Assembly (NCBI GenBank): GCA_020628865.1
Contig: JAHDEJ010000041.1
Location: forward strand, 1 to 38,720
DNA length: 38,720 nucleotides
From: Acidimicrobiales bacterium
GTDB taxonomy: Bacteria > Actinomycetota > Acidimicrobiia > Acidimicrobiales > SHLQ01
Reading direction: 5' to 3'
In this document: one piece after another, positions 16,728 through 38,641 of the stretch
Numbering within the stretch: the stretch's first letter is position 1
Layout of the letters: every line of letters starts with the position of its first letter
Notes under the pieces: model-generated
What the model saw: the letters and a program-made list of their open reading frames with translations, nothing else
What the model was told of the DNA's origin: nothing
Databases searched by the model: none
Made by a program: the position numbers and the translations under genes

Positions 16728-16789
16728 GGTTCTGCCCTCATGGTGCTGACGCACGGGGCCGGGCGGCCACGTTCACTTCGTTCACTCAT
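16724..16789 (-). CDS. 21-codon mini-ORF bridging nuoB1 and nuoC1
   Basis: A tiny ORF that exactly fills the gap between nuoB1 and nuoC1. Its ATG (16789-16787) overlaps the nuoB1 stop as ATGA, and its TGA overlaps the nuoC1 start as ATGA. The peptide starts [12 protein letters not shown] and is basic. It may serve to carry ribosomes across the 58-nt gap so that nuoC1 stays coupled, or encode a small peptide. The SERSER part comes from a short repeat (AGTGAACGAAGTGAACG). Chance cannot be excluded for such a short frame. Confidence 0.4.
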
Positions 16790-21943: not shown

Positions 21944-24261
21944 CAGGCGGCCGTCCTTACGAGGAACCAGATCAGCAGCGCAGCGGATCCGAGAGCGATA
22001 CCGAGGGCGTAGGAGCGCACGAATCCGGTCTGGATTCGGCGGACCATTCCGCCTCCCGAGCGAACCGAGGTGGCCACGCCGTTGACGATGCCGTCGATGA
22101 CGTTGGCGTCGAACCAGGCGATGGCGTCGAACAGGACTCGGCCGGGGCCGCCCATGAAGGCGGTGACGGCGTTGTCGTAGTTCCAGCCCTCGGCGAGGAT
22201 CGGCTTCTCGAAGGTGGCCGGGTCACGCTGGTGGAGCAGATAGGTGGCTCGGGCAAGGAGGATCCCGGCGGCACCAGCGCCGATGGCGATGAATGCGAGG
22301 ATCCACTTGGTCGCCGCACTCGCGTTGATGATGTGCTCGTGCGCGAGGGCCGGCTCGAGCCAGTGACCGAGGAAGTGGAGGCCCTTCGTGAACGGCAGGT
22401 TCAGCGCGCCACCGACGATGCTCAGACCGGCGAGGACGACGAGCGGAGCCGTCATCTGCCACGGCGACTCGTGCGGATGGTGCTCGGCCCGGGCGGCGAC
22501 GGTCTCGGGGAGGAAGCCCTCGGCCTCACCGGCGCTCGGCGCTTCACCCGGCGCCGCGATCGGACGATCTCGGCGGGCATTCATGGCCGTGTCCCGGGCA
22601 CGCGAGGCAGTCGATGCCGATGCGGAGGCCTCGTCGAGGGCGGTGGCGGCAGGCGCGAGGGCGGCGTTCGCCTTTTCGAGGGCGGCTTCGGCCGTCTCGA
22701 GGCTGGTCTGAGCGGCCGACCGCTCGTCGTCGTCGACCGCAGAGGCCAGAGCGACCTTGGCGTCCGTCACTGCGGTTTCTGCGTCGCGGGCTGCAGCGAT
22801 TGCCTTTTCGTTCGCTTCGAGTGCGGTCGCCTGCGCATCGTTCGCCGCGCTTGCGGTGGTGGATGCATCGTCGACGTACGCGTCCCAGGCCTGCTCGATC
22901 TCGTCGGCGTCGGGGTCGGCGAAGCGATACCGGCCGAAGAAGGTCATGAAGACCTGGCGGCTCATGTAGAAGGCGGTGAGCATCGCGGTGAGGAGACCGA
23001 GTCCCCAGAGCAGGAAGCCGTTGATGCCGCCCTTGTCCCATGCGGAGAGGAGGATCTCGTCCTTCGACCAGAAGCCGGCGAACGGCGGGACACCGGCGAT
23101 GGCGAGCCAGCCGATGATGAACGTGATCGCGGTGATCGGCATGAGTTTTTGGAGCCCGCCGTACCGGCGCATGTCCTGGTCGTTGTCCATCCCGTGGATG
23201 ACGGAGCCGGAGCCGAGGAAGAGCAGCGCCTTGAAGAAGGCGTGCGTGATCATGTGGAAGATGGCAGCGACGTACGCGCCCACGCCGACAGCGAGGATCA
23301 TGTAGCCGAGCTGCGAGACCGTGGAGTAGGCCAGGACCTTCTTGATGTCGTTCTGGGCGACGGCGATCGTGGCCGCGAAGAGCGCCGTGCCGACACCGAC
23401 CCAGGCGATGACGTCGTTGGCCCAGCCGGCGTCGTGCAGGACGCTGTTGATTCGGGTCAAGAGGTAGACGCCGGACGTCACCATGGTGGCGGCGTGGATG
23501 AGCGCCGAGACCGGCGTCGGGCCGGCCATGGCGTCGGGCAGCCACAGGTACAGCGGGAACTGTGCGGACTTGCCCATGGCGCCGACGAAGATCAGCAGCG
23601 CGAGGCCGGTGGCGACCGAGCCGCTGACGGCGTGATCGGCAACGGCGGCGTCGATGTCCAGGTAGTTGATCGACCCGATGGTGGCGAACGCCAGGAACGT
23701 GGCGACCATGAAGCCCCAGTCACCGACGCGGTTGGTGACGAAGGCCTTCTTGCCAGCGGTGGCGTTTGCTTCTTCCTCGAACCAGAAGGAGATGAGGAAG
23801 TAAGAGCAGGCGCCCACGCCTTCCCAACCGAGGAAGGTGAGGAGCAGGTTGTCGCCCAGCACGAGCATCAGCATCGAGAAGGCGAACAGGTTGAGGTAGA
23901 GGAAGAACTTCGAGAAGTTGGCATCCCCGTGCATGTACCCGATCGAGTACAGGTGGATCAGCGTGCCGATACCGGTCACAAACAGGATCATGGCGACCGA
24001 CAGCGGATCGACGAGGAAGCCGACGTCGACGGAGAAGTCGCCGACCGGCACCCATTCGAAGACGGTGTGGGTGACGCGACGATCGTGCTCATCGAGCCCG
24101 ATCAGGCCCACCCAGGTGCCGACGGCGGCAAGGAACGATCCGCCGATTGCCGCGGTGGCCAACCAGCCCGCCATCGGCTCGCCGAGACGGCGTCCGGCGA
24201 CGAGCAGTGTGATGAATCCGAGCAGCGGAAGGAGCGGGACGAGGTAAACGAGTTCGGTCAT
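21943..24261 (-). CDS. nuoL: NADH-quinone oxidoreductase subunit L (cluster 2) with coiled-coil insertion
   Basis: A 772-residue distal proton-pumping subunit of complex I. The channel Glu is in LGWEGVGACSYFLISFW (147) and the Lys in GAMGKSAQFPLYLWLPDAM (231). HMITHAFFKALLFLGSGSVI and KDEILLSAWDKGG follow. After FMTFFGRYRF (about 447) an insertion of roughly 140 residues occurs before HHPHESPWQMTAPLVVLAG (about 594), where normal NuoL has only a short loop. The insertion is Ala-rich with regular Glu, Lys and Asp and looks like a long helix or coiled coil. Codon use there is like the rest of the gene. The start ATG at 24261 has GAGGGG upstream. Confidence 0.96.
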   Translation of the reverse strand: MTELVYLVPLLPLLGFITLLVAGRRLGEPMAGWLATAAIGGSFLAAVGTWVGLIGLDEHDRRVTHTVFEWVPVGDFSVDVGFLVDPLSVAMILFVTGIGTLIHLYSIGYMHGDANFSKFFLYLNLFAFSMLMLVLGDNLLLTFLGWEGVGACSYFLISFWFEEEANATAGKKAFVTNRVGDWGFMVATFLAFATIGSINYLDIDAAVADHAVSGSVATGLALLIFVGAMGKSAQFPLYLWLPDAMAGPTPVSALIHAATMVTSGVYLLTRINSVLHDAGWANDVIAWVGVGTALFAATIAVAQNDIKKVLAYSTVSQLGYMILAVGVGAYVAAIFHMITHAFFKALLFLGSGSVIHGMDNDQDMRRYGGLQKLMPITAITFIIGWLAIAGVPPFAGFWSKDEILLSAWDKGGINGFLLWGLGLLTAMLTAFYMSRQVFMTFFGRYRFADPDADEIEQAWDAYVDDASTTASAANDAQATALEANEKAIAAARDAETAVTDAKVALASAVDDDERSAAQTSLETAEAALEKANAALAPAATALDEASASASTASRARDTAMNARRDRPIAAPGEAPSAGEAEGFLPETVAARAEHHPHESPWQMTAPLVVLAGLSIVGGALNLPFTKGLHFLGHWLEPALAHEHIINASAATKWILAFIAIGAGAAGILLARATYLLHQRDPATFEKPILAEGWNYDNAVTAFMGGPGRVLFDAIAWFDANVIDGIVNGVATSVRSGGGMVRRIQTGFVRSYALGIALGSAALLIWFLVRTAA

Positions 24262-24264
24262 GCG

Positions 24265-24576
24265 TCAGCCCCTCAGTACCGAAAGATCGTCGGCCGTGGC
24301 GTCCTGGCGGCGGCGCATGATGGCCACCACGATTGCGAGGCCGATCACGACCTCGGCAGCGGCCACGACCATCACGAAGAACACGGCGACCTGGCCACCG
24401 ATGTCGTTCAGGCCCCAGGCCAGCGCAACGAAGGTCAGGTTGACGGCGTTCAGCATCAGCTCGACGCACATGAACATCACGAGCGGGTTCCGACGGACGA
24501 GCAGGCCGACGGCACCGATCGAGAACAGCAGGGCACCGAGAACCAGGTACCAGGTCGGGGTGAGGACCAGATCCAT
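24265..24576 (-). CDS. nuoK: NADH-quinone oxidoreductase subunit K (cluster 2)
   Basis: A 103-residue, three-span membrane subunit of complex I. The two conserved membrane Glu are in MFMCVELMLNAVNLTFVAL (39) and VVAAAEVVIGLAIVVA (75). The ATG at 24576 shares a base with the nuoJ2 stop; nuoL2 starts 3 nt after the stop. Size is that of the family and nothing is unusual. Confidence 0.96.
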   Translation of the reverse strand: MDLVLTPTWYLVLGALLFSIGAVGLLVRRNPLVMFMCVELMLNAVNLTFVALAWGLNDIGGQVAVFFVMVVAAAEVVIGLAIVVAIMRRRQDATADDLSVLRG

Positions 24577-25214
24577 CAGGCCTCCTCTGCGTCGACGACG
24601 GCGTCGTCGGCGGTCGGGTCGGCCGCATCGGCGGCGCGGGACACGCGGCGCTCAGGCAGGTCGGGCAGTGGCTGGAGTTCTCCGGAGATCTTGCGGGCCA
24701 TCACGACGGCGCCGACGACGGCGACGGTGAGGAGCAGACCCGTGACTTCGAAGGCGAACACGAAGTCCGTGAAGATCGACTCGGCGAGCTGATTGACGTC
24801 CGGCAGCGGTTCGCCGTCGACGCCGAGGCGGTCGAGCGCAGACCGGGAGCTCTGGAAGCCCGTTGCACCATCGACGGAGTAGATGATCGCGAGCAGCAGG
24901 CCGAGGATCGACGCGCCGGTGAACCAGGCGAGCTGCCGCTGGCCGATGATGGGCTCGACCCGGAGATTCTCCGAGCGATCGACGCCGAGCAGCATGATCA
25001 CGAACAGGAACAGGATGACGATGGCGCCGGCGTAGACGATGACCTGGATCGCGGCGAGGAAGTGGGCCTCGATCACGAGGAACAGCACAGCGACACCGAA
25101 GAGCGTCTGAATGAGGAACAGCGCAGCGTGCACGGGGTGGCGGGCGAAGATGACGCCGCCGGCACCGACCAGCACGATGGCGGCCGCGATGAGGAAGACG
25201 ATGACCTGCAGCAT
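24576..25214 (-). CDS. nuoJ: NADH-quinone oxidoreductase subunit J (cluster 2)
   Basis: A 212-residue membrane subunit of complex I with five hydrophobic segments. The family signature is AAIQVIVYAGAIVILFLFVI. A polar C-terminal tail rich in Asp and Ala (from about 178) follows the last helix. It lacks the long polar loop seen in the cluster 1 copy. The ATG at 25214 shares a base with the nuoI2 stop. Confidence 0.95.
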   Translation of the reverse strand: MLQVIVFLIAAAIVLVGAGGVIFARHPVHAALFLIQTLFGVAVLFLVIEAHFLAAIQVIVYAGAIVILFLFVIMLLGVDRSENLRVEPIIGQRQLAWFTGASILGLLLAIIYSVDGATGFQSSRSALDRLGVDGEPLPDVNQLAESIFTDFVFAFEVTGLLLTVAVVGAVVMARKISGELQPLPDLPERRVSRAADAADPTADDAVVDAEEA

Positions 25215-25864
25215 CAGTGGCCCCCGTGCTCGTCGTGATCGTCGGCGGCCGGTTCGGCTTCGATCACCGCATGCTGGCCCTGCTCGGGTGCACGCACGCC
25301 GTAGCCGAGTTCGCCCGACCAGGCGACCCGGTTCTCGTAGTCGGCGTCACCGCCGGGTGCGGTCGCCCGCATCCATCCGGAGGTGGCCAAGTCGTCGCCC
25401 TCGCGCCAATCTTCCCAGGGAAGCTTCTGTGGCATGCCATCGTCACCGACGACGAGTTCGTCCTTGGTGTAGATGGCGTCGGAGCGGTTGGTGAACGAGA
25501 ACTCGAAGAGCTTCGATTCGGTGATCGCTTCCGTGGGGCACGCTTCCACGCAGAGGTCGCAGTGGATGCAGCGCAGGTAGTTGATCTCGTAGATGTAGCC
25601 GTAGCGCTCACCCGGTGAGACCGGGTTGTCGGGCTGGTTGTCGGCGCCGCGGACGTAGATGCAGCGGGCCGGGCAGACGCCGGCGCACAGCTCACAGCCG
25701 ATGCACTTCTCCATGCCGTCCTCGTACCGGTTCAGTACGTGACGTCCGTGCAGGCGTTCGGGCTTCGGGCGCTTCTCGCCCTCTCCCCCGGCCTTGTATT
25801 CACCCGTGACCCGCTCTTCGAAGAGCTTGGCGAAGGTGACTGCGAATCCTTCGAGGTACCCCAT
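25214..25864 (-). CDS. nuoI: NADH-quinone oxidoreductase subunit I, two [4Fe-4S] (cluster 2)
   Basis: A 216-residue peripheral-arm subunit with two tetranuclear cluster motifs: CIGCELCAGVCP (54-65) and CIHCDLCVEACP (99-110). The segment between them (RGADNQPDNPVSPGERYGY) is ordinary, in contrast to the basic loop of the cluster 1 NuoI. The C-terminal third is longer than in cluster 1 and ends in a small His/Asp tail (DDHDEHGGH). The ATG at 25864 shares a base with the nuoH2 stop. Confidence 0.96.
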   Translation of the reverse strand: MGYLEGFAVTFAKLFEERVTGEYKAGGEGEKRPKPERLHGRHVLNRYEDGMEKCIGCELCAGVCPARCIYVRGADNQPDNPVSPGERYGYIYEINYLRCIHCDLCVEACPTEAITESKLFEFSFTNRSDAIYTKDELVVGDDGMPQKLPWEDWREGDDLATSGWMRATAPGGDADYENRVAWSGELGYGVRAPEQGQHAVIEAEPAADDHDEHGGH

Positions 25865-27120
25865 CAGCCGTACTCCAACACATCAGATTCGGCTCGGTTG
25901 AGACGAGCGTTTCGAATGGCACCCATCAAGAGGCTCATCGCCAGGACCCCGCCGGCGAGGCCGACGGCGATCACGACGAAGATGTTCCAGTCCTCGTCCT
26001 GACCGACGCGGATGGCCGCAAGGATCAGGAACCAGATGAGCGAGATCGGGATAAGCACCTTCCAGCCGAGGTCCATCAGCTGGTCGTAGCGGAGACGAGG
26101 CAGCGTGGCTCGGAACCAGACGAAGATGAACAGGAAGACGATGACCTTGCTGAAGAACCAGAGGATCGGCCAGAACCAATCGATGGCGTCCCACAGGATG
26201 GGGCCATCGGGGCCACCGAAGAAGAGCGTGACCATGATGGCCGACATGGTCACCACGTTCATGAACTCGGCGAGGAAGAAGAGCGAGAACCGCAGCGAGC
26301 TGTACTCGGTGTGGAACCCGCCGACGAGTTCCTGCTCGGCTTCGACGAGGTCGAAGGGCGGGCGGTTCAGCTCAGCCGTGCCGGCGATGAGGAACACGAT
26401 GAACGGGATGAAGCCAAGTCCGAAAATGTTCCAGCTAGCGACGGAAATTTCAACACCAAGCACCTCGGCACCACCGACTTGCTCAGCCACAATGTCATGG
26501 GTCGAGAGCGAGCCACTGGCAAGAAGCACCGCTGCGAGGGACAGTCCAAGAGCCGCCTCGTAGGAGACCATCTGGGCGGACGCACGCACCGAGCCGAGCA
26601 GCGGGTACTTGGATCCGGAGGACCAGCCGGCGAGCATGACGCCGTAGATGCCGAGGCCCGACATGGCGAGGAACAGCAGAATGCCCATGGGCGGGTCGAC
26701 GAGCTGCACGAGGAACGTGTGTCCGAAGAGCTCGGCTTCGCCGTTCTTGTCGGCGAAGTTGCCGCCGATCGGCACCATCGTGAACATCAGGAAGGCGGGG
26801 ATGAGCGACAGGTACGGGGCCAGCTTGAAGACGAAGCGGTCCGCCTGATCCGGGATGAGGTCTTCCTTGAAGAAGAGCTTGATGCCGTCGGCCAGGGTCT
26901 GGAGGATGCCCCATGGTCCGGCCACGTTCGGACCGATGCGGTTCTGCATGTCCGAGACGACCTTGCGCTCAAACCACACCATGAGCATCACGGCGACGAG
27001 CAGGAACGCAAAGATCAGGACGACCTGGATGATCAGGAAAACGGGATCGTTTTCCCAGAACCGCCAAGTGGGCCAGCTCCATTCGAACGTCTCGAGGTAC
27101 GGCTGCTGAGCGAAGATCAC
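25864..27120 (-). CDS. nuoH: NADH-quinone oxidoreductase subunit H (cluster 2)
   Basis: A 418-residue membrane subunit that links the quinone cavity to the proton channels. Family segments are MQNRIGPNVAGPWGILQTLA, GWSSGSKYPLLGSVRASAQM, SYEAALGLSL and AELNRPPFDLVEAEQELVGG. It is longer than the cluster 1 copy (344) through an N-terminal helix region and a C-terminal extra membrane segment, as in actinobacterial NuoH. The ATG at 27120 overlaps the nuoG2 stop (ATGA). Confidence 0.96.
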   Translation of the reverse strand: MIFAQQPYLETFEWSWPTWRFWENDPVFLIIQVVLIFAFLLVAVMLMVWFERKVVSDMQNRIGPNVAGPWGILQTLADGIKLFFKEDLIPDQADRFVFKLAPYLSLIPAFLMFTMVPIGGNFADKNGEAELFGHTFLVQLVDPPMGILLFLAMSGLGIYGVMLAGWSSGSKYPLLGSVRASAQMVSYEAALGLSLAAVLLASGSLSTHDIVAEQVGGAEVLGVEISVASWNIFGLGFIPFIVFLIAGTAELNRPPFDLVEAEQELVGGFHTEYSSLRFSLFFLAEFMNVVTMSAIMVTLFFGGPDGPILWDAIDWFWPILWFFSKVIVFLFIFVWFRATLPRLRYDQLMDLGWKVLIPISLIWFLILAAIRVGQDEDWNIFVVIAVGLAGGVLAMSLLMGAIRNARLNRAESDVLEYG

Positions 27121-29615
27121 GAGACACGCTCCAGGGACACGGTGGTCACCGTCCGGGCGGAGTCGAGCAGCGACGCAGCGGATGCATTGGGCTGATTGAA
27201 CTCGATGGCGACGGCTCCGGCGGGGACCCCGGCGTCGGCAACCACGGGCAGCGTGATCGAACCGACCTCGGACCGCACGGTGACATCGTCGCCGTCGGTG
27301 AACCCGAGCGAGGCGAACTGTGCCGGATTGATCGAGGCGGAGGCGCCGGCGGCGAGTTCGACGAGCGACGGGCTGTTGGTGAGCAGCGTGCCGGCGTCGT
27401 ACATCTTGCGGGTGACGATCAGTCGCATGTCGGACGAGTCCGCCATCTCGACGTTCGGTGCCGGTGGCCGGCTGATCGACGAACCGGCGAGCAGGACGCC
27501 TTCGGTGCCGCCCTCGGCGATGTCGGCCATCGAGAGGTCGGCGTGCAAGGGGGACGCGGCGGCGAAGTCGGCCCAGAGCTCGTCGAGATCGATGAAGCCG
27601 AGGTCGTCAGCGAGTTGTGCAGCGAGTTCGGCGGCGATCATCCAGTCGGGGCGGGCCGTTCCGGGAGGCGTCACCTTGCGAGCGATCGGGCTGAGGCGGC
27701 CCTCCATGTTCGTGAAGGTGCCGTCGACCTCGGTGGCGCTCGCGGCGGCCGGGAAGACGATGTCTGCGCCGGTCGAGGTGAGGTTCAGATGCGTGTCGAC
27801 CGAGATGAGGTGGTTGACCTTGTTGAACGCACGCTCGGCCAGGGCTGCATCGGGGAAGTCGGCGAGCGGGTCGCAGCCGAGGAGGATGGCGACCTCGACG
27901 TCTCCGGCGTCGGCCTTGCGAAGCATCGCTTCGGCATCGAGACCGGCAGAGGCGGGAAGCGATCCCCACGTGTCTGGTGCAGTGGAGCCGGCGAGACGGC
28001 GACGGCCGGGCAGCATGCCCGGGGCGAGGCCGGCGTCGATGGCGCCCATGACGTTGGCGCGGTGCAGGGCCGGGAGGAACGTGGCGTTCGGGTACTGCTC
28101 GGCCAGACGCAGCGCAGCTTGCGCCATGACGGTCGGATCTTCGCCGAGCGAACCGGAACCGAGCACCACGGTGACAGCGTCGGCCGCTCCGAGTGCCTCG
28201 GCCATTGCGGCAATGGCGTCAGCGTCGCAGCCACCGGCCGCACCGCCGGCAGCGAGAGCGCCGACGACGTCGCCGAGCTCGCCGGGCAGCGCGTGCAGCG
28301 ACTGGGCCGCGTACTGGCTGAGACCGCTCGAGCGGGGGTTGAGTTCGAGGATGGTGGCGCCGTCGTGCATGGCGGCGTGACGGAGGCGCAGGAACAGCGC
28401 GCCGTGCGTCTCCTTGGGATCGGCGCCGACCACCAGGACGGTTCCGCCCGGGGCGCAGGCCTGGTCGATGGTGGCGCGAGGCAGGCTGAGCAGCACCTCG
28501 GCTGCGGGCCCGTCACCGAGCTGGGCGTCCACGTTGTCGGTACCGATGACGGCCTTGGCGAGCTTGGCCCAGGCGTACTGCGATTCGGTGGTCATCCGGG
28601 ATCCGCCGAGCACGATGACCTTCTCGGGGTCGACGTCACGAAGTGCATCGCCGGCCTTGCCGAGGGCGAGCGCCCACGAGGCGCCGACGAGCTGATCGCC
28701 CGAGTCGGTCGGGTTGCCGAGCTTGTCGCCACGCACCAGGGGGCCGGTGAGGCGGGCGTCGGCGTTCCATGCTTCGAAGCTGAAGCGCTCCTTGTCAGAG
28801 AGCCAGCCCCAGTTGACGGGGTCGCTGTCCACGCCCAGGTATCGGAGTACCTCGTTGCGCGAGGACTGGACGGTGATGCGGCTGCCGACGGAATCCATCG
28901 TTGCCGTGGAGGCGATTTCGGTGAGGTCCCACGGACGGGCCTTGAAGCGGTACGGCTTGGCGGTGAGCGCACCCACCGGGCAGATCTGCACCGTGTTGCC
29001 GGAGAAGTACGACGAGAACGGCTCGTCCGGGAACGTGTTGACCTCGGTCTCGTTGCCGCGGGCCTGAAAGTGGATCAGCGGGTCACCGGCGACATCGCCG
29101 GCGAAGCGGGTGCAGCGGTCGCACAGGATGCAGCGTTCACGGTCCAGGTAGACGATGTCGGAGATCGGGATGGGCTTTTCGAAGTGGCGCTTCTCTTCGA
29201 CGAACCGGCTTTCGCCGGGGCCGTACGCAACGGTCTGGTCCTGGAGGGGGCACTCGCCGCCCTTGTCGCAGACCGGGCAGTCGAGCGGATGATTGATGAG
29301 CAGGAACTCGAGGACGCCGTCCTGGGCCTTCTTGGCAACGTCGGACTCGGTTTGGACGACCATGCCGTCGCTGACGGGGAGCATGCAGCTCGGCTGGAGG
29401 CCGGGCCCACGGCCGGTGTCGACCTCGACGAGGCACATGCGGCACATGCCCACCGGCTTCATGCGCGGGTGGTAGCAGAAGCGCGGGATGTAGACGCCAT
29501 GGCGCTCGGCGGCCGCGATGAGCAGCTCGCCCTTCTTCGCCATGATCTCGACACCGTCGATCGTGACGGGCACGCCGTCGGTGACTTCGTCAGCCTGGGG
29601 TTCCGTGGCGGTCAT
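27117..29615 (-). CDS. nuoG: NADH-quinone oxidoreductase subunit G (cluster 2)
   Basis: An 832-residue peripheral-arm subunit. N-terminal clusters: [2Fe-2S] with Cys47, 58, 61 and 77; the His-Cys3 cluster N5 (INHPLDCPVCDKGGEC, His109, Cys113, 116, 122); and N4 with CILCDRC (162, 165, 168) plus Cys212 in QICPVGALTAKPYRFKARPW. The inactive molybdopterin-oxidoreductase domain follows. Where NuoG with the extra cluster N7 has C-x2-C-x3-C, this protein reads LTEIASTATMDSVGSRI (about 231-247) with no Cys, so N7 is absent. Only cluster 2 has this subunit. The ATG at 29615 overlaps the nuoF2 stop (ATGA). Confidence 0.96.
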   Translation of the reverse strand: MTATEPQADEVTDGVPVTIDGVEIMAKKGELLIAAAERHGVYIPRFCYHPRMKPVGMCRMCLVEVDTGRGPGLQPSCMLPVSDGMVVQTESDVAKKAQDGVLEFLLINHPLDCPVCDKGGECPLQDQTVAYGPGESRFVEEKRHFEKPIPISDIVYLDRERCILCDRCTRFAGDVAGDPLIHFQARGNETEVNTFPDEPFSSYFSGNTVQICPVGALTAKPYRFKARPWDLTEIASTATMDSVGSRITVQSSRNEVLRYLGVDSDPVNWGWLSDKERFSFEAWNADARLTGPLVRGDKLGNPTDSGDQLVGASWALALGKAGDALRDVDPEKVIVLGGSRMTTESQYAWAKLAKAVIGTDNVDAQLGDGPAAEVLLSLPRATIDQACAPGGTVLVVGADPKETHGALFLRLRHAAMHDGATILELNPRSSGLSQYAAQSLHALPGELGDVVGALAAGGAAGGCDADAIAAMAEALGAADAVTVVLGSGSLGEDPTVMAQAALRLAEQYPNATFLPALHRANVMGAIDAGLAPGMLPGRRRLAGSTAPDTWGSLPASAGLDAEAMLRKADAGDVEVAILLGCDPLADFPDAALAERAFNKVNHLISVDTHLNLTSTGADIVFPAAASATEVDGTFTNMEGRLSPIARKVTPPGTARPDWMIAAELAAQLADDLGFIDLDELWADFAAASPLHADLSMADIAEGGTEGVLLAGSSISRPPAPNVEMADSSDMRLIVTRKMYDAGTLLTNSPSLVELAAGASASINPAQFASLGFTDGDDVTVRSEVGSITLPVVADAGVPAGAVAIEFNQPNASAASLLDSARTVTTVSLERVS

Positions 29616-30997
29616 GCGGTCACCTCAACTGGGGTACCGATCTTGGCTTCGAACTCGTGGCGGAAGCGGCGGATGGCAGACGTGATCGGCGCGACCGACG
29701 ACGGGCCGAGCGGGCAGATCGTGGTCTGGCGGGGCGGGAAGGGCACCGCGTCGAGCCCTTCGGCTTCGAACGAGGCCACCGGGTACGGCCCGGGCGAGAT
29801 GTTGTCGGCGACGTCGAGCAGCAGATCGAGGTCCTCGGGCCGGCCGTTGCCGTCGAGGATGCGCTGGAGGATCTTCTCTTCCCAGCTGGTGCCTTCGCGG
29901 CACGGCGCACACTTGCCACAGGATTCGCGGGCAAAGAAGCGCACGACCCGCAGGCAGGCCTTCACCGCATCGGTCGAGTCGTCCATGATGACGATCGCAC
30001 CGGAACCGAGCATCGTGCCGGCCGCACCGACCGGACGGGCCTCGAGCGGAAGCGAGACGTGCTCGGGGAACAGCCACGGGGCGGAGCCGCCGCCGGGGAT
30101 GAACATCTTGAGCTCGTGGCCGTCGCGCATGCCCTGGCAGTAGTCGTCGCCGTAGATGAGATCTTCGTACGTGGTGACACCCTGCTCGACCTCGTAGACG
30201 CCGGGGCGCTTCACGTGGCCGGACACCGCGAACATGCGGGTACCCGGAGAGGTCTCGCTGCCGAGTTCCTTGTACGCCTCGGCACCGTGTTCGAGCATCC
30301 ACGGCAGGTTGGCGAGGGTCTCGACGTTGTTCACGATCGTCGGCTGGCCGTAGAGGCCGACGGCGGCCGGGAAGAACGGCGGCTTCAGACGCGGCATGCC
30401 GCGGTTGCCTTCGAGGCTCTCGATGAGCGCGGTCTCTTCGCCGACGATGTACGCACCGGCACCCCAGTGCAGGACGATGTCGACCGAAAAGTCCGTGCCG
30501 AGGATGTTCTTGCCGACGTAGCCGGCTTCGTAGGCCTCGTTGAGGGCGTCGGCGAGGCGCTGCTGGGCGATCGCCATCTCGCCGCGGACGTAGAGGAAGC
30601 ACTGCGAGAGGCCGATCGCGTAGCAGGCGATGAGGCAGCCCTCGATGAGCTGATGGGGATCGAGCTCCATGAGGAGGCGATCCTTGTAGGTGCCGGGCTC
30701 GGACTCGTCGCCGTTGACGACGAGGTAGCGCGGCCAGACCTCGGGCGGGCAGAAGCCCCACTTGATGCCGGCCGGGAAACCGGCGCCGCCGCGACCGAGC
30801 AGCGTGCCTTCACGGACGATGCCGTGGCACTCTTCCGGGCCGTTCGCAAGGGCCTTCTTGAGCCCTTCGTAGCCGCCCGTCGCCAGGTAACGGTCCAGCG
30901 TGTAGCTGTCCTCGTAGCCGAAGCGACTCGACACGACCTTGGTGCCGGGGCTGTCGACATAGCCGGGAGCGTGCGGGACGTATTCGCCAGTTGCCAT
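29612..30997 (-). CDS. nuoF: NADH-quinone oxidoreductase subunit F, FMN and NADH site (cluster 2)
   Basis: A 461-residue subunit that binds NADH, FMN and cluster N3. Visible: the NADH/FMN loop GRGGAGFPAGIKW (69-80), the FMN segment NGDESEPGTYKDR, and the N3 ligands in ESCGKCAPCREG with a fourth Cys in TTICPLG. A short Pro-rich insertion precedes that last Cys. I use the ATG at 30997 (MATGEYVPHA), which shares a base with the nuoE2 stop; the frame from 31027 adds ten residues inside nuoE2. It is the only NADH-oxidising subunit gene in the window. Confidence 0.96.
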   Translation of the reverse strand: MATGEYVPHAPGYVDSPGTKVVSSRFGYEDSYTLDRYLATGGYEGLKKALANGPEECHGIVREGTLLGRGGAGFPAGIKWGFCPPEVWPRYLVVNGDESEPGTYKDRLLMELDPHQLIEGCLIACYAIGLSQCFLYVRGEMAIAQQRLADALNEAYEAGYVGKNILGTDFSVDIVLHWGAGAYIVGEETALIESLEGNRGMPRLKPPFFPAAVGLYGQPTIVNNVETLANLPWMLEHGAEAYKELGSETSPGTRMFAVSGHVKRPGVYEVEQGVTTYEDLIYGDDYCQGMRDGHELKMFIPGGGSAPWLFPEHVSLPLEARPVGAAGTMLGSGAIVIMDDSTDAVKACLRVVRFFARESCGKCAPCREGTSWEEKILQRILDGNGRPEDLDLLLDVADNISPGPYPVASFEAEGLDAVPFPPRQTTICPLGPSSVAPITSAIRRFRHEFEAKIGTPVEVTA

Positions 30998-31641
30998 CAG
31001 CTGTCGCCCTTCGTCGTCGTGAGCCACACCGGGTTCTCCGTGACCTGCTCCGGCGGCACGATACCGGCTGCCTTGTCCGGGTCGAGGTGCTGGCGGGTGA
31101 GGCCGAGCGTTCCATGGGAGGGAATCTGGTCGCCGGGGTTGGCGGTGATGAGCTTGTCCGGGGTGCGGCCGGCGCGGAGATCGTCGATGATCTCATCGAA
31201 ATCGTCGGTGCTGAGCCGGACGCCATAGCGGTAGTTGACCTGCATGCAGGGCGCCTCGGTGCAGGCAGCGATGCACTCGACGTCTTCCAACGTGAACATG
31301 CCGTCGCTGGTGGTGCCGCCGGGCCGGATGCCGAGTGTCTTCTCGGCGTGGTGTAGGAGCTCCTCGCCACCGAGCAGCTGGCAGGCGATGTTCGTGCAAA
31401 CGTTCACCATGTAGGTGCCGACCGGGTGCAGCTTGAACATCTCGTAGAACGTGCAAGTGCCACGCACCTCTGCCGGGGTGACACCGACGAGTTCTGCCAG
31501 GTGCGCCATCGCTTCGTCGGACACCCAGCCGTCCTGCTCCTGTGCAAGGTGCAGCAGCGGGATGAGTGCAGACTTCGGCCGCGGGTAGCGGGCGATGATC
31601 TCGTGCGCGATTTTGACGTTTGCTTCGGTGAGACGACTCAC
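30997..31641 (-). CDS. nuoE: NADH-quinone oxidoreductase subunit E, [2Fe-2S] (cluster 2)
   Basis: A 214-residue thioredoxin-like [2Fe-2S] subunit of the NADH module. Ligands are Cys82 and Cys87 (VCTNIAC) and Cys123 and Cys127 (CIAAC), after the family segment GVTPAEVRGTCTFYEMF. I choose the GTG at 31641, which overlaps the nuoD2 stop by one base (TAGTG) and gives the N-terminus SRLTEANVKIAHEII; the frame upstream is a shadow of nuoD2. The C-terminal 50 residues after the Fe-S domain are a polar extension. Confidence 0.95.
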   Translation of the reverse strand: MSRLTEANVKIAHEIIARYPRPKSALIPLLHLAQEQDGWVSDEAMAHLAELVGVTPAEVRGTCTFYEMFKLHPVGTYMVNVCTNIACQLLGGEELLHHAEKTLGIRPGGTTSDGMFTLEDVECIAACTEAPCMQVNYRYGVRLSTDDFDEIIDDLRAGRTPDKLITANPGDQIPSHGTLGLTRQHLDPDKAAGIVPPEQVTENPVWLTTTKGDS

Positions 31642-32957
31642 TAGCGGTCCACCTCTCCCATGATCGGATCGACGCTGGAGATCACGGCGACGGCATCGGC
31701 GAGCAGGCCGTTCTCCATCAGGTGGGGCAGCGTCTGCAGGTTGACGAAACTCGGTGCCCGCACATGCATGCGGACCGGCGTCGAGCTGCCGTCGGAAACG
31801 ATGTACACGCCGAGCTCGCCGCGGGGGCTCTCGACGGCGGCATAGGACTCGCCGACCGGGACCTTGAAGCCCTCGGTGAAGATCTTGAAGTGATGGATGA
31901 GTGCTTCCATCGATTCGTCGATGCGGGCCCGCGGCGGTGGCGTGACCTTCTTGTTCTGCGCCCGGTAGTCGCCCGATGGCATCTTCTCGATGCACTGGCG
32001 AACGATGCGCATGGACTCGCGGATCTCGTTGAGACGAATGGCGTAGCGATCGAAGCTGTCGCCGTAGCTGCCGACGATGACGTCGAAGTCGACCTCGTCA
32101 TAGGCCAGGTAGGGCATGTCCCGGCGAAGGTCCCAGCTGCTGCCGGCGGAGCGCAGGATCGGACCGGTCGCGCCGAGGGCAAGGCACTCGGCCTCGTTGA
32201 TCACGCCGACGCCCTGCAGCCGCTCACGCCAGATCGGCTGACCGGTCATCAGGATGTCGTATTCCTCGAGCCGGGGCTCGACGGCGTCGAGGTACTCGAT
32301 GAGGTCTTCCTGCCATCCGTCGGGGAGGTCGGCGGCAACGCCACCGGGACGGATGTAGTTGTGGTTCATGCGAAGGCCGGTGACCTTCTCGAAGAAGCGA
32401 AGCAGTGGCTCGCGCTCGCGCCAGCCGTAGATCATCATCGAGACGGCGCCGAGGTCCATGCCGTTGGTGGCCATGAACAGCAGGTGCGAGGCCATGCGGT
32501 TCAGCTCGGTCATCATCATGCGGATCCAGGTGGCCCGCTCCGGGATCTCCATCTCGAGCAGGTTCTCGACCGCAAGCGAGAAAGCGAGTTCGGTGAACAA
32601 CGGCGAGGCGTAGTCCATGCGGGTCACGTTGGTGCAGCCCTGGAGGTAGGTGAGCTGCTCGCCCGTCTTTTCCATGCCGGTGTGGAGGTAACCGATGATG
32701 GGCTTGGACCGCAGCACGGTCTCGCCTTCCATCTCGAGCATGAGGCGAAGCACGCCGTGGGTCGACGGATGCGACGGACCCATGTTGATGATCATCTTCG
32801 ACTCGCCGAGCTCGTCCTCGGGGTCGAGCGAGAGGGCGCCGGCCTCCGCTTCGGAGAGACGCAGCACGGCGTTGTCCCGCGACATCACCCGGCTGGCGTC
32901 GCCGACGAAGCCGGTGTCGGGGGCGTCGGTGGTCGGGGCGTCTTCTGCAATCGTCAT
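31641..32957 (-). CDS. nuoD: NADH-quinone oxidoreductase subunit D (cluster 2)
   Basis: A 438-residue quinone-site subunit of complex I. Quinone-site residues are intact: MGPSHPSTHGVLR (His63, His67) and the Tyr of LTYLQG (104). The segment IIGYLHTGMEKTG has Thr93 where the cluster 1 NuoD has the methylatable Arg; Thermus NuoD also has HTG. I choose the ATG at 32957 (MTIAEDAPTT), 4 nt after the nuoC2 stop. An N-terminal extension of about 50 residues precedes the conserved core. Confidence 0.95.
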   Translation of the reverse strand: MTIAEDAPTTDAPDTGFVGDASRVMSRDNAVLRLSEAEAGALSLDPEDELGESKMIINMGPSHPSTHGVLRLMLEMEGETVLRSKPIIGYLHTGMEKTGEQLTYLQGCTNVTRMDYASPLFTELAFSLAVENLLEMEIPERATWIRMMMTELNRMASHLLFMATNGMDLGAVSMMIYGWREREPLLRFFEKVTGLRMNHNYIRPGGVAADLPDGWQEDLIEYLDAVEPRLEEYDILMTGQPIWRERLQGVGVINEAECLALGATGPILRSAGSSWDLRRDMPYLAYDEVDFDVIVGSYGDSFDRYAIRLNEIRESMRIVRQCIEKMPSGDYRAQNKKVTPPPRARIDESMEALIHHFKIFTEGFKVPVGESYAAVESPRGELGVYIVSDGSSTPVRMHVRAPSFVNLQTLPHLMENGLLADAVAVISSVDPIMGEVDR

Positions 32958-32961
32958 GGGG

Positions 32962-33489
32962 TCACCGCTGTCCGGGGGCACCCTTGAACTGCACCGGGAT
33001 ACGACCGATGTCGTAGTCCTTGCGCAGGGGGTACCCGTTCCAGGTTTCGGGCATGAGGATCCGGCTCATGTCGGGGTGGTCGATGAACGCGATGCCGAAC
33101 ATGTCGAAGGCTTCGCGTTCCATTGCTTCGGTGCCGGGGTAGAGGTCGAAGAGCGACGGAACGTCGACATCGTCGGCCACCTGCGCCCGCACGCGAATCC
33201 GGCTGCGTTCCGCGTGGTTGATCAGGTTGACCACGATTTCGAAGCGTTCCGGCTGGATGCTGGCGGGAAGATCGGTTCGGTCGGTGCCGAGGTAGTCCAC
33301 GCCACACAGGTCGATGACCTGGGCAAAGCCCGCGGCGTGCAGCCGTGCGAGCAGATCGGCGTAACCCTCGACATCGGTGTGCAGCACGGTCTGACCAAAC
33401 GAGGTGGTGACCGGTGCGTCGTGGAGGAGTTCTTCGACAGGGGAGGCTGCCTCGACAGGCTCCTCTTCCGGAGTTTCGGTGTCCGACAT
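32962..33489 (-). CDS. nuoC: NADH-quinone oxidoreductase subunit C (cluster 2)
   Basis: A 175-residue peripheral-arm subunit. The signature is MEREAFDMFGIAFIDHPDMS and ILMPETWNGYPLRKDY; IDLCGVDYLG in the N-terminal half is also typical. The first 25 residues are acidic. The ATG at 33489 has GGGGA upstream and lies 8 nt after nuoB2; the C-terminus ends PVQFKGAPGQR, as in many actinobacterial NuoC. Confidence 0.95.
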   Translation of the reverse strand: MSDTETPEEEPVEAASPVEELLHDAPVTTSFGQTVLHTDVEGYADLLARLHAAGFAQVIDLCGVDYLGTDRTDLPASIQPERFEIVVNLINHAERSRIRVRAQVADDVDVPSLFDLYPGTEAMEREAFDMFGIAFIDHPDMSRILMPETWNGYPLRKDYDIGRIPVQFKGAPGQR

Positions 33490-33497
33490 GGTGTCCC

Positions 33498-34088
33498 CTA
33501 CCCGATGGCCACGGCCGTCTGGCCGTCCCGTTGCGCAACTTCGATTCCGGCGCCGCCACCGTTCTCGGCCCGACGGCGAAGCAGTTCACCGTTCTCGATC
33601 GAGTCGTGAAGGGTGAAGATTGCGTGGAGCAGCGTTTCGGGTCCGGGGGGACAACCCGGTGCGTAGACGTCGACCGGAACCACCTGGTCGACACCCTGCA
33701 CGATCGCGTAGTTGTTGAACATGCCGCCGCTGGAGGCGCACACGCCCATGGAGATGACCCACTTGGGTTCCATCATCTGGTCGTAGATGGTGCGCAGCAC
33801 GGGCGCCATCTTCTGCGAGACACGCCCGGCGACGATCATGAGATCGGCCTGACGCGGCGAGGCGCGGAAGACCTCCATGCCGTATCGGGCCATGTCGTAG
33901 TGACCGGCACCGGTGGCCATCATCTCGATGGCGCAGCACGCAAGACCGAACGTGGCCGGCCACAGGCTGCGGGCCCGGGACCAGTTGACGAGGTCTTCGA
34001 CTCGGGCCGTCAGAAAGTTGTGTTCGATGCCGGCGATGCCGTCGTCGAGCACCGTGCGGCCGGTGTCTTCGTCCTTGAACAGACCCAT
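33498..34088 (-). CDS. nuoB: NADH-quinone oxidoreductase subunit B, N2 cluster (cluster 2)
   Basis: A 196-residue subunit that carries cluster N2. Ligands: the Cys pair in [10 protein letters not shown] (51, 52), Cys in MGVCASSGG (117) and Cys in APGCPPGPE (146). I use the ATG at 34088 ([10 protein letters not shown]), one base after the nuoA2 stop; the frame from 34118 adds ten residues inside nuoA2. The C-terminal tail is longer than in the cluster 1 copy. Confidence 0.95.
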
Positions 34089-34089
34089 G

Positions 34090-34548
34090 TCAGGCTGCCT
34101 CTCCGTCCATGCGGCCATCGCTGCCCACTCGACGAATCGTCGAGGAGGTCGTGCGTTCCGCCGAGACGGCGGCCTTCAGCTTGCGAGCCTGGTGAACGGG
34201 GCCCCACTCGAGGGCGCCGTTGCCGATCAGATACACGAACGACTCGAACACGGCGGCGGCGAAGATGACGATCGCCCAGAGGCCGAATGCGCCGAGCTCC
34301 CGGTGAGCGACTGCCCACGGGTAGAAAAAGATGAGCTCGATGTCGAAGACGATGAAGATCATCGCGATGAGGAAGAACCGGACGGGAAAGCGTTCCGGGG
34401 TCTCCTTCGCGGGCTCGATGCCGCACTCGTAGGCCGAGTTCTTCTTGTCGTTGGGCCGGTTCGGCGCAAGCATCCGTGAGGCCACGAAGCTGATCGCTGC
34501 GAAGAGGATGCCGAGGATCAGGAGGCCGACAACCGGGAGGTACTGCAC
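34090..34548 (-). CDS. nuoA: NADH-quinone oxidoreductase subunit A (cluster 2)
   Basis: A 152-residue, three-span membrane subunit of complex I. Family marks are [20 protein letters not shown] and [21 protein letters not shown] polar, Arg/Lys-rich C-terminal tail of about 35 residues follows the last membrane helix and is missing in cluster 1 NuoA. The start is a GTG at 34548, one base after the stop of the unknown three-span gene, so nuo cluster 2 has no promoter gap of its own. Confidence 0.94.
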
Positions 34549-34549
34549 G

Positions 34550-35608
34550 TCAGTTCGCTTCCTCGAACTCCCGAACTCGCTTCATCGTCTCGAGGTCACG
34601 CAGGTGCAGCATGTAGCACAGCGCAAGGAAGATGAGGAGCGAGCCGAGGGTCACCATGGCCGGCGGGAACCGGAGGTTGCCGAGGTCACGGATCATGACG
34701 ACGGAGATGATGGGAGCCTCTTCGTCGACGGCCGGGAACGGCGGCGCCTGGCCCTCTTCGACGATGAGGGCCGCTTCGTCAAGGGCCCGGAGCTGGACGA
34801 CGGCATACTCGGGCGGGTTCTTGATGCGGGCCGAGTTGGCGATCCAGTGCCAGCCACGTCGCAGGTTGTCGGTGCAGAACGTGCAGGCGAGGTCGATGTC
34901 TCGGTCGAGGCGCGGCTTTCCACCGATGCGGAATGCGTCGAGGAACTTGAACTCGGTCGACGCCTCGAAGCTGAAGCCGTCCTGTTCGAGGATGGCGGCG
35001 CTCGCGGCGGACTGTGCTTCACCGGCGTCGGCGGTGTTCATGATCTCCCAACCGTTGAGGTTGGGGAGTCGGCCGTCTTCGAATGCGCCCTCGACGAAGT
35101 CGGGAGCGACGGAGAAGACCTGTGAGAGGGTCGTTGACTCGTTGCGCTGCTGCTGGCGGAGCCAGGCGGCTTCGACGACGGCGGGATCGACGCCTTCGAA
35201 CTCTTCGCTTTCCTTGTCGATCTCGGCGGTGAACTCGGCCATGGCCTCTTCACCGGCGGCGACGCCTTCGGCAGCGATCAGGAAGCCCTGCCCCTGCAGA
35301 AGTTCGGGATCGGGAAGATCCTGCGCCACGTCGACCGAGGATTCCGATATCGCCCCTCGGTTGAAGTCGAGGATGTGCCAGCTGACGGACTCACCGACGT
35401 AGCCGATGCCTCGGATCCACCAGAAGCCGCCCATGATCACCATCCAGCCGAAGAAGCCGGCGAGGGCGATGAGCGAGGCGAGGCGAACGCCGGAGTTGGT
35501 GGCCAGGATCAGCCAGATCGATCCGAAGAGGACGATGGCTCCGGTGGCGACAACGAGGATGCCGCGGATTTCGGGATCGAACCCGATCGCTGCGAGTGTC
35601 GACAACAT
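34550..35608 (-). CDS. Unknown three-span membrane protein with CxxC motif, between bc and nuo genes
   Basis: A 352-residue protein that I do not recognise. Hydrophobic segments lie at about 17-37, 42-64 and 314-334. Between the second and third is a large polar domain (65-310). In it, DIDLACTFCTDNLRRGWHW carries a C-x2-C pair (242, 245) that is not a heme site because no His follows. The linker around 118-160 is acidic and helical. It starts 2 nt after the diheme cytochrome c stop and ends one base before nuoA2, so it must be co-expressed with complexes III and I. A role as an accessory subunit or link between the two complexes is inference; disulfide or metal binding by the CxxC is possible. 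Confidence 0.82.
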   Translation of the reverse strand: MLSTLAAIGFDPEIRGILVVATGAIVLFGSIWLILATNSGVRLASLIALAGFFGWMVIMGGFWWIRGIGYVGESVSWHILDFNRGAISESSVDVAQDLPDPELLQGQGFLIAAEGVAAGEEAMAEFTAEIDKESEEFEGVDPAVVEAAWLRQQQRNESTTLSQVFSVAPDFVEGAFEDGRLPNLNGWEIMNTADAGEAQSAASAAILEQDGFSFEASTEFKFLDAFRIGGKPRLDRDIDLACTFCTDNLRRGWHWIANSARIKNPPEYAVVQLRALDEAALIVEEGQAPPFPAVDEEAPIISVVMIRDLGNLRFPPAMVTLGSLLIFLALCYMLHLRDLETMKRVREFEEAN

Positions 35609-35610: not shown

Positions 35611-36936
35611 TTACAGGCTCCTCGCGTAGGCCACGACAGCGGCGATCTGCTCTTCGGTCAGCGACGCTGGCCAGTTCTTGGACACTTCGACTCCGAATTC
35701 GTCGATTTCGACGAGGTCATCGTCGAGTCGGTTGCTGAAGCCGGGCATCTGGCCGGAGCCCTGACCGGCGACGCCGTAGCGAATGCCGTCCGCTGAACCC
35801 TTCCGGATGAAGTCGATGTGGCTGTCCACGTTCGGGAACTGCGTGACCTCCGCACCGTTGGTCAGGTTGGGACCGAACCAGCCGCCGCCCTGGAGGTATC
35901 CGGGCACGGTTGCGCCATCGGCGTCGGTCACGGTGGTGACCGGGTTGCCGGCGATGTCAAGATCGAAGGCGCCGTCGTAGGACCAACCTGCCGTGTGGCA
36001 ACGGGCGCAGCTGTACGCACCGGAGTCGGCCCGGTTGATGAAGAGGAGCTTGCCGTAAGTGAGGTATTCCTCGTGGCTCGGATCGGAGATCTCGTCGAGC
36101 CAGGCGGCCATCTGCTCGTTCGGGAATGTCTCGCCGACTTCGCGCTGGAAGTTGGAGAGTTCGCCCTGCGCCTCTTCGATGATGCTGCTCACGCCGGTCT
36201 GCTGGGCTCGGGCCAGGTTCTGCTTGGCGTCGAGGAAGCGAGCGGAGAGATCGGGGTCTCGCAGGACCCATTCTTCGCGGGCCTCGGCGATGAGACCGTC
36301 GGTCACGGCGACCTGGACGGCGTCGGCGTCCTTCTGGACGGACCGGAGGTAGACCACGATGACGTCGAGCTGCTGCGCAGTGAGCGGACCGCCGCCGGGA
36401 GCGCCCCACGCCGGCATGACGCCGTTGCGGCCGAAGTTCAGCGTGTGGATGACCTCGTCCTCGGTGAAGCGGGTGAGGAGGGAGGTGAGCGACGGCGCCA
36501 CCCAGTCGACGGATGCGACGAAGGCACCGGTGCCCTGCTCGGTGATGGCGAACGAGGCGATACCGCCGGCGCCACCGCCGCCGTGACACGACGAGCAGCT
36601 CTCTTCGAAGGCTTCCGCGCCGTCCTCGGTCCAGAGGTGCAGGGTGTTTTCGACGAGCCCTTCCTGGCGGCCGGGTTCACCCAGCCAGTAGAGGGGCAAC
36701 GCAAGGCCGATCACCGACAGGAGGAACAGCCCCGACAGGAGGCTCTGGTCCAACTTGGTGGTCTCGAGAATGTCGTCGGAATGGTACGGCTTCCGGTTGG
36801 CGGCAAGCTCGATTTCGGCGCCGCCCTCGCCTCGGGTCTCCAACAGGTTGAAGAAGAGGTAGACGAGGAAGCCGATTATGACGACGGCAAGGATGACAAC
36901 GCCAATGTTTCGCGTTGCACTCTGGGCAAGGATCAT
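35611..36936 (-). CDS. Membrane-anchored diheme cytochrome c of the bc complex
   Basis: A 441-residue membrane protein with hydrophobic segments at about 10-31 and 66-86 and two c-type heme sites: CSSCH (114-118) and CARCH (310-314). MPAW (about 174) and MPGF (about 397) offer Met axial ligands for the two hemes. The domains are separated by a charged, helical linker (about 200-270). The first heme domain should take electrons from the Rieske protein and the second pass them on. The ATG at 36936 follows an in-frame GTG at 36939; either may start the protein, as no strong ribosome-binding site is seen. It is the cytochrome c1-like partner in this gene set (QcrC role), although its layout differs from the classical actinobacterial QcrC. 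Confidence 0.92.
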   Translation of the reverse strand: MILAQSATRNIGVVILAVVIIGFLVYLFFNLLETRGEGGAEIELAANRKPYHSDDILETTKLDQSLLSGLFLLSVIGLALPLYWLGEPGRQEGLVENTLHLWTEDGAEAFEESCSSCHGGGGAGGIASFAITEQGTGAFVASVDWVAPSLTSLLTRFTEDEVIHTLNFGRNGVMPAWGAPGGGPLTAQQLDVIVVYLRSVQKDADAVQVAVTDGLIAEAREEWVLRDPDLSARFLDAKQNLARAQQTGVSSIIEEAQGELSNFQREVGETFPNEQMAAWLDEISDPSHEEYLTYGKLLFINRADSGAYSCARCHTAGWSYDGAFDLDIAGNPVTTVTDADGATVPGYLQGGGWFGPNLTNGAEVTQFPNVDSHIDFIRKGSADGIRYGVAGQGSGQMPGFSNRLDDDLVEIDEFGVEVSKNWPASLTEEQIAAVVAYARSL

Positions 36937-36971
36937 CACGGTCTCTGAATCTAGGGGAACTTTGGTCGTGG

Positions 36972-37001: not shown

Positions 37002-37850
37002 TCAGTGCGAGGAAGCGCCGAGGCAGCTGGGGCCTTCACGCTCCTGGCCGGTCGTGTTCACGCCGATCGACTGGCCACCGATGATGTTGCCGGTGTCGAC
37101 GACGAGATTTCCGTTCGAGATCGACATGGCGAAGAAGTCCATGCCGCGGGGAGCCGGTCCGCCACGCTTCTCGCCCACCTGGTTGTAGAACGAGCCGTGA
37201 CACGGGCACTCGAAGAACTGGGAACTGCCACACTCGGGCACGCGGCAACCGAGGTGCGGGCACTTCTGGAACAGCGCCATGAAGCCGGCCTCGATGCCGG
37301 GCCATGCGGCGGTGTCGCCGTACTCGACCGCAGCCTTCTCGAGGGCGCCGGACGGGTACTCGGTGACCCACATGCGACCTTCGGGGCGGTAGAGGAAGCC
37401 GTTGGCGGCGGTGATCTGTGCCCGGACGTCGCCGACCTCGCCGACGTTGATGGCCGAGCCGAAGCCCTCGGACGCGCCCGGCCAGAGCTGGGCGATGACC
37501 GCCGCTCCGAAACCACTGAGGGCGAATCCGAACATGCCGATGATCGACCGGTTGAGGAACTGGCGACGAGCGACGCCGATGGCCTCGGGATCGGGGGCGA
37601 CCCAGGGCTCGATTTCCGACTCGTCGAAGGCGACGAGGTCGCCCTGACGGCGCTCGAGCGCTGCAGCCTTCTCGACCTCGCGGCCGGTGACTTCCTCTTC
37701 GACCCCGATGGCGCCGGCGGCGACACGGGACTGATCCCGCTTGCGGGTCTCGGCCGAGATGGCGGAGTTGGCATCGCTGCGACGGGAGGCAGCAAAGAGT
37801 GCGATGGCAGCGAGGATGACGATGCCGATGATTGCGAGTGCAAGTACCAC
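37002..37850 (-). CDS. qcrA: Rieske [2Fe-2S] protein of the cytochrome bc complex
   Basis: A 282-residue iron-sulfur subunit that takes electrons from quinol and passes them to cytochrome c. Rieske box 1 is CPHLGC (197-202) and box 2 CPCHGS (215-220), giving two Cys and two His ligands and the disulfide Cys pair; an extra Cys (207) lies between. Hydrophobic segments are at about 2-21 and 102-122. The second is preceded by ARRQFLNRS, a twin-Arg motif suiting Tat export of the folded domain. The GTG at 37850 has a perfect AAGGAG 7 nt upstream, which overlaps the end of the cytochrome b gene. Typical actinobacterial QcrA has three N-terminal spans; this has two. Confidence 0.95.
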   Translation of the reverse strand: MVLALAIIGIVILAAIALFAASRRSDANSAISAETRKRDQSRVAAGAIGVEEEVTGREVEKAAALERRQGDLVAFDESEIEPWVAPDPEAIGVARRQFLNRSIIGMFGFALSGFGAAVIAQLWPGASEGFGSAINVGEVGDVRAQITAANGFLYRPEGRMWVTEYPSGALEKAAVEYGDTAAWPGIEAGFMALFQKCPHLGCRVPECGSSQFFECPCHGSFYNQVGEKRGGPAPRGMDFFAMSISNGNLVVDTGNIIGGQSIGVNTTGQEREGPSCLGASSH

Positions 37851-37861: not shown

Positions 37862-38641
37862 TTAGAACTCGAAGAACAGGCCGTCAGACCACGGCATGAT
37901 GAAGTTGAAGCCCGGGCCCCGGAAGAAGGAGCCGATCATGACGAGCACAGCCCAATACATGAGGTGCACTGTCTGCAACGAAATGGCGAACTTGCGATCT
38001 TCCGGCTTCATCGAAGGGTTCTTGTCGATGTAAGGAGCCAGGATCAGCAGGAACATGCCCATTCCGGGAATCGTCACGCCGGCCACCATCGGGTGGAACA
38101 TCGTGAGGAGTTCCTGCAGACCGAGGAAGTACCACGGGGCCTTGGACGGGTTCGGCGTCTCGTTGAAGTTGGCCAGCTCGAGGAGCGGGGCGTTCACGAA
38201 CACCGAGAAGATGAGGATGAAGGCCAGCACGAACAGTGCGCACACGAACTCGACGACGAGCAGGTGCGGCCACGTGTGGACCTTGTCCTGGGGTACGGCC
38301 TTGACGTCCTGGATCGAACCGGACTTCACGACCGTGAGCAGACGCTGGGTGTGGCCGCCGGGGCCAGTGGCCACGGGTGCGGCCGGCGCAGCGGCAACGG
38401 CGGTCGCCGCACCGGCAGCGGCTGGCGCTGCAGTTCCTGCGGCCTCGACGGCACCGCCGCCGTCGGCCTTGCTCTTTGCGGCCTTGGACCGCTCGAGCAG
38501 ATGCGCAGGGATCTTCGAAGCGGCTTCGCTCTGCGGAGCGTCGCTGGCCGCCTCGGCCGCGGCCGGAGCCTCGTCCTTGGAGGCCGCTTTCGCACGAGCC
38601 TCCTCGGCCCGCTTACGAAGATGTTCAGGGATTTCAGTCAT
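37862..38641 (-). CDS. Cytochrome b, C-terminal subunit (subunit IV-like) with Ala-rich extension
   Basis: A 259-residue membrane subunit forming the C-terminal half of a split cytochrome b in a menaquinol:cytochrome c reductase. About three hydrophobic segments follow residue 128. The quinol-site segment reads NPSKAPWYFLGLQELL, where b6f subunit IV has PEWY. The first 95 residues are an unusual polar and Ala/Pro-rich extension with two similar repeats: EIPEHLRKRAEEARAKA (3-19) and KIPAHLLERSKAAKSKA (43-59). The ATG at 38641 has AAGGGA upstream and follows the N-terminal cytochrome b gene by 18 nt. The symbol is left open because naming differs between lineages. Confidence 0.9.
   Translation of the reverse strand: MTEIPEHLRKRAEEARAKAASKDEAPAAAEAASDAPQSEAASKIPAHLLERSKAAKSKADGGGAVEAAGTAAPAAAGAATAVAAAPAAPVATGPGGHTQRLLTVVKSGSIQDVKAVPQDKVHTWPHLLVVEFVCALFVLAFILIFSVFVNAPLLELANFNETPNPSKAPWYFLGLQELLTMFHPMVAGVTIPGMGMFLLILAPYIDKNPSMKPEDRKFAISLQTVHLMYWAVLVMIGSFFRGPGFNFIMPWSDGLFFEF

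Follow-up and report, generated by a model that had tools for sequence, protein, structure and literature searches.

Does a membrane protein whose gene is wedged between those of a cytochrome bc complex and those of complex I belong to the former, to the latter or to both? The question is raised by a stretch of 38,720 nucleotides from an Acidimicrobiales bacterium (contig JAHDEJ010000041.1), hereafter called the window, in which an open reading frame for a three-helix membrane protein of 352 amino acids, here abbreviated as X, starts with ATG at position 35608 and runs down to 34550 on the minus strand.

The X Gene and Its Setting

The X gene begins 2 nt after the end of the bc operon's cytochrome c gene and is followed after 1 nt by nuoA; a first-pass annotation of this DNA had described the frame and its two gaps in the same way. 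The genes follow one another on the same strand in the order petD-like, Rieske, dihaem cytochrome c, X, nuoA, nuoB, nuoC and nuoD. The C-terminal (petD-like) subunit of cytochrome b is encoded at 37862..38641 (PF00032), the Rieske iron-sulphur protein at 37002..37850 (PF00355), the membrane-anchored dihaem cytochrome c, which carries the haem motifs CSSCH and CARCH, at 35611..36939 and NuoA, which opens the complex I set after X, at 34090..34548 (PF00507, E 3e-32), all on the minus strand. Because the contig ends where the window ends, the genes upstream of the petD-like gene fall outside the latter. In a congeneric locus (L051) this upstream region encodes a cyt b6-like N-terminal subunit of cytochrome b together with a two-cluster 4Fe-4S protein, and the cyt b6-like gene of the window lies beyond the contig end. 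The 4Fe-4S protein is small, carries two such motifs and has its gene immediately ahead of the cyt b6-like one (L051:13520-13936, minus strand), with equivalents in most loci; where enough sequence is available, it is almost always recognizable as a NuoI-like match at about 1 kb on the upstream side of petD.

On the other side of X, complex I genes form two tandem sets on the minus strand of the window, at 6776-17481 and 18819-34548. The set that follows X comprises nuoA, B, C, D, E, F, G and onward, while the second has nuoB, C and D directly followed by nuoH and later by nuoL, M and N, with no E, F or G between D and H, and thus resembles the 11-subunit form of complex I.

Within the genus, X orthologs share 67-77% identity, a range similar to those of the adjacent cytochrome c (71-77%) and Rieske protein (70-74%). 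This conservation, together with the presence of homologs in 238 of the 296 genomes of the class, indicates that X is more than a chance reading frame.

Searches for Related Families and Folds

The first-pass annotation knew no family with the layout of X and suggested profile and structure searches, which we have carried out with results that agree with its view. As a single protein, X has no match in Pfam, NCBIfam or the sequences of the PDB. When the 41 members of our main alignment were compared with Pfam-A and NCBIfam at their curated thresholds, only sub-threshold matches were obtained, all with E above 0.006, and none of six more distant members passed the Pfam cut-off. Profiles of X retrieved nothing significant from PDB sequences, and Foldseek found no PDB structure resembling the AlphaFold model at E 0.001. 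With VIA-align the best match to the whole model (Z 7.2) is due to long helices, while the polar domain gave weak alpha/beta matches (6l77, Z 5.8; the cystatin 3mwz, Z 4.5), scores that are too low for a fold to be named. We found no paper in the open-access literature that deals with X or with the Acidimicrobiia bc operon. Relatives of X itself are, by contrast, abundant.

Architecture and Membrane Orientation

The AlphaFold model of X, built with 41 sequences (pLDDT 90.7, pTM 0.80), shows helices at residues 12-39, 41-66 and 314-351 flanking a polar alpha/beta domain with four main strands, in agreement with the two N-terminal membrane segments and the single C-terminal one noted earlier. 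The N-terminal transmembrane hairpin (residues 12-66; 35411..35575, minus strand) has a near-invariant TNxGxR turn and is followed by the variable, acidic polar domain (about residues 76-313; 34670..35383, minus strand), which is predicted to be extracytoplasmic, and then by the C-terminal transmembrane helix with its tail (residues 314-352; 34553..34669, minus strand).

Conservation is unevenly spread along this layout. Near-invariant residues of the hairpin are G29, T37, N38, G40, R42, G54 and W63, and those of the C-terminal helix are F327, L334 and H335; overall, the invariant or near-invariant positions group in the hairpin and near the last helix (G29, G40, W63, G72, G310 and R313). A conserved set of Cys, His or Met residues that could bind a cofactor is absent from the family. 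X is thus predicted to be embedded in the membrane and to carry no cofactor motif, as a supernumerary subunit of the bc complex would.

The length of the protein varies strongly among lineages. In one clade of Acidimicrobiia, X has only about 115-139 residues, with three helices and no polar domain, and its homologs in other classes have 219-313 residues. The hairpin profiles of long and short forms match strongly (99.3%), while the homology of helix 3 between them is modest (E 2.9e-6 vs 5.8e-5 for a control helix). Given that the polar region is variable, and absent in one clade, the three-helix module rather than this region constitutes the core of X.

As for orientation, every one of the 41 members has a positive residue in the loop between helices 1 and 2, the mean charge of the N-terminus is negative, the polar domain is strongly acidic (net charge about -16) and the positive-inside signal of the C-terminal tail is weak. 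The combination of a positive hairpin loop with an acidic domain suggests that the loop faces the cytoplasm and that the polar domain is exposed on the outer (p) side of the membrane. The paired cysteines of this domain, described below, support the same orientation.

Gene Neighbourhood and Co-occurrence with the bc Complex

To place X in its genomic context, we collected relatives from genomes belonging to the family, class and phylum of the window organism, as well as from named GTDB contigs, the latter being searched with a 12-row subset of the alignment and stemming mostly from Acidimicrobiia, with a few records that are probably mislabelled. In all the resulting 171 loci, which include a few overlapping copies of one place, bc genes of the same orientation lie directly upstream of X: cytochrome c is matched within 900 bp of X in 170 of them and Rieske within 1.5 kb in the remaining one, and in most loci the frames of X and cytochrome c overlap or nearly abut. 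The first-pass annotation had also called for a survey of loci across genomes; its outcome is that X resides in a respiratory locus of the bc type in every one of these cases. The gene nuoA follows X in 101 loci but not in 67, the other three contigs ending too soon. On a petD-like subunit tree, which was built quickly and has many weakly supported branches, adjacency to nuoA requires three changes and is missing from the more distant lineages. With bc linkage being universal and nuoA adjacency limited to part of the tree, we consider the former to be general and the latter to have arisen later, so that the nuo neighbour in the window is most likely a derived arrangement.

The distribution of X among the 296 genomes of the class leads in the same direction. 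Of these genomes, 238 have X, 247 the petD-like subunit and 294 nuoB. X and bc are both present in 231 genomes and both missing in 42, with seven genomes having X only and 16 having bc only; the agreement thus extends to 273 genomes, with 23 discordant (Fisher p 2e-30, a value that ignores relatedness). Draft assemblies and the sensitivity of the profiles may account for the 16 genomes with bc only and the seven with X only. Since the two genomes lacking a nuoB match carry both X and bc, all 42 genomes devoid of bc and X retain nuoB. X therefore follows bc and not complex I, and its linkage and co-occurrence alike are those that a supernumerary bc subunit would show.

Some additional features of these loci deserve mention. 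A gene for a Rex-like redox regulator (CoA_binding plus Put_DNA-bind_N) adjoins the bc-X genes in L202 (6662-7294), L208 (7056-7679) and L219 (8807-9601); it shares their strand in L202 and lies on the other strand in the remaining two loci. One draft genome has two diverged bc-X loci, L089 (G013:C199) and L005 (G013:C349), one of which groups with another family on the tree and probably comes from a contaminant contig. Finally, among L123, L155, L162, L200, L153 and L163 there are records titled Bifidobacterium breve or Acidobacteria; those included in the tree group with Acidimicrobiia, and mislabelling is probable.

A Probable Supernumerary Subunit of the bc Complex

The first-pass annotation had proposed that X might be either a supernumerary subunit or a bridge between complexes III and I. 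Universal linkage to bc and co-occurrence with it, combined with the derived nature of nuo adjacency, make an extra bc subunit likely and a bridge unlikely, so that only the first part of the proposal stands. In our view X probably serves the split-cytochrome-b bc complex in Acidimicrobiia and related classes of Actinomycetota as a supernumerary subunit without a cofactor, and we infer its physical membership in this complex from gene linkage and shared distribution. The complex concerned would be a menaquinol:cytochrome c oxidoreductase, in which the three-helix module, that is the hairpin joined by TNxGxR plus the C-terminal helix, would sit beside cytochrome b and the anchors of the Rieske protein and cytochrome c. 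The acidic domain, which spans roughly 130-280 residues in most lineages, would be carried on the p side, between the second helix and the third; there it would most likely pack on the dihaem cytochrome c, a putative contact that could steady the position of this cytochrome for electron transfer.

In the b6f complex, the small subunits PetG, PetL, PetM and PetN each contribute a single short helix around the split cytochrome b; X would resemble them in adding helices to a petB/petD-like arrangement, but differs in having three helices and, in most lineages, a large insert. To our knowledge, Mycobacterium and Corynebacterium are the sources of what is known structurally about complex III in actinobacteria.

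Another parallel could be subunit IV (fbcQ) of the bc1 complex of Rhodobacter sphaeroides, which stabilizes the complex, raises its activity and contacts the helices of the Rieske protein and cytochrome c1 (PMC10041115). This subunit has 124 residues, is encoded outside the fbc operon and has no homology to other supernumerary subunits (PMC10041115). X would be like subunit IV in being a cofactor-free membrane protein beyond the three catalytic bc subunits, and differs from it in having three helices, a gene within the operon and often a large p-side domain. Neither the X protein nor its profiles matched a PDB sequence, a comparison that remote kinship with FbcQ could escape. P29, which covers the dihaem QcrC in the Corynebacterium supercomplex (PMC8795186), offers a further parallel for a p-side domain packed on cytochrome c.

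If X is indeed a subunit, a further membrane partner that has no name in current annotation must be added to the split-cytochrome-b complexes of Acidimicrobiia and of the classes related to them, and structural studies on these organisms should expect to find it. With no, small or large domain in its different members, the X family also offers a natural series for probing the function of a supernumerary p-side domain.

Alternative Roles for X

Gene linkage would look alike for a structural subunit and for a factor dedicated to assembly, and the chief rival to the subunit reading is that X assists the assembly or maturation of the bc complex, for instance as a membrane chaperone for the dihaem cytochrome c or for Rieske insertion, and is absent from the mature complex. 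Such a factor would have the same exclusive linkage to bc and could accommodate a polar domain of variable length that one clade dispenses with. It would also be suited by two loci from two families of other classes, L216 (8740-12001) and L218 (9180-12065), in which the cytochrome c maturation protein ResB is encoded after X, accompanied in L216 by a ResA-like protein of the thioredoxin fold. In most loci, however, what comes after X is not a gene for cytochrome c biogenesis but a nuo gene, an unrelated gene or a convergent one. Moreover, within the genus X diverges at about the rate of its catalytic partners cytochrome c and Rieske, and members of the main alignment have no match to a chaperone or maturation family in Pfam-A or NCBIfam. 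We thus regard an assembly role as a serious but distinctly less probable explanation.

Another possibility is that X connects complex III to the terminal oxidase, its acidic p-side domain lying over the cytochrome c branch of a III-IV supercomplex. The actinobacterial III2IV2 supercomplex has accessory proteins, P29/LpqE and P20/PRSAF1 (PMC8795186, PMC11189923), among which P29 covers the dihaem QcrC in Corynebacterium (PMC8795186) and LpqE is associated with the closed form of QcrC in Mycobacterium (PMC11189923). A supernumerary X would share with these proteins its attachment to actinobacterial complex III, and its predicted acidic p-side domain, encoded next to a membrane-anchored dihaem cytochrome c, would recall the location of P29 on the p side of QcrC; the genome also has genes for a COX1-type oxidase. 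Yet the COX1 matches are on other contigs, and P29 and LpqE are lipid-anchored, P29 having no membrane helices, whereas X is predicted to have three helices and lacks a lipobox cysteine at its N-terminus. Furthermore, X matched neither PRSAF1/P20 nor other chains of solved supercomplexes by sequence profile or Foldseek. We therefore consider a linking function towards complex IV unlikely.

The bridging of complexes III and I is far less plausible still: the position of X between cytochrome c and nuoA in the window, with nuoA next in most loci, would fit a bridge, but X keeps its place beside bc where nuo is elsewhere, the adjacency is missing from distant lineages, and X is missing from genomes that lack bc while nuoB is near-universal in the class, its occurrence being tied to bc and not to nuo as well. 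The bc-nuo gene order by itself should consequently not be taken as a sign of a III-I supercomplex.

Equally improbable is a thiol redox or metal-binding function exerted through the cysteine pair to which the first-pass annotation gave weight. The pair, CTFC (Cys242 and Cys245; 34874..34885, minus strand), and the motif CTFCTDNLRRGWHW are indeed present in the window protein, whose only other cysteine is residue 331, but this CxxC is confined to the genus of the window, the polar domain elsewhere having its cysteine pair at other positions or no cysteine at all, and X matches no thioredoxin-type or other redox family in Pfam or NCBIfam. Among 137 distinct proteins, the polar domain has zero (65 proteins), two (69) or four (3) cysteines and never an odd number, and the pair occurs at many different places; kinship among these proteins lowers the number of independent cases, but several separate placements can be seen. 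Even counts at shifting places point to lineage-specific disulphides in an exported domain, of which CTFC probably represents one placement.

Domain Size and the Inter-haem Segment of Cytochrome c

The clade with short X has an unusual cytochrome c, in which the segment between the two haem motifs spans 279-365 residues, compared with a median of 149 elsewhere. A transfer of the domain between X and the inter-haem insert was considered and rejected, the two sequences showing no detectable similarity. Some loci with a long X domain also have long inter-haem segments, and over the whole set the correlation between the two lengths is weak (Spearman -0.13, p 0.10). The structural exchange of a short X for a long cytochrome c insert, seen in one clade and hence in one evolutionary case, is thus to be taken as a lead only. 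Tentatively, X might represent an undescribed family of bc subunits spread over several classes of Actinomycetota, in which a p-side domain has been added to the three-helix module, remodelled or lost and in which, where it is lacking, cytochrome c enlarged its inter-haem segment, the two elements possibly sharing one role on the outer face of the complex. As a separate observation, the long inter-haem insert of the short-X clade, in the cytochrome c of L202, L207, L209 and L212, contains a motif of the DxDxDGLSD type that is reminiscent of calcium-binding repeats.
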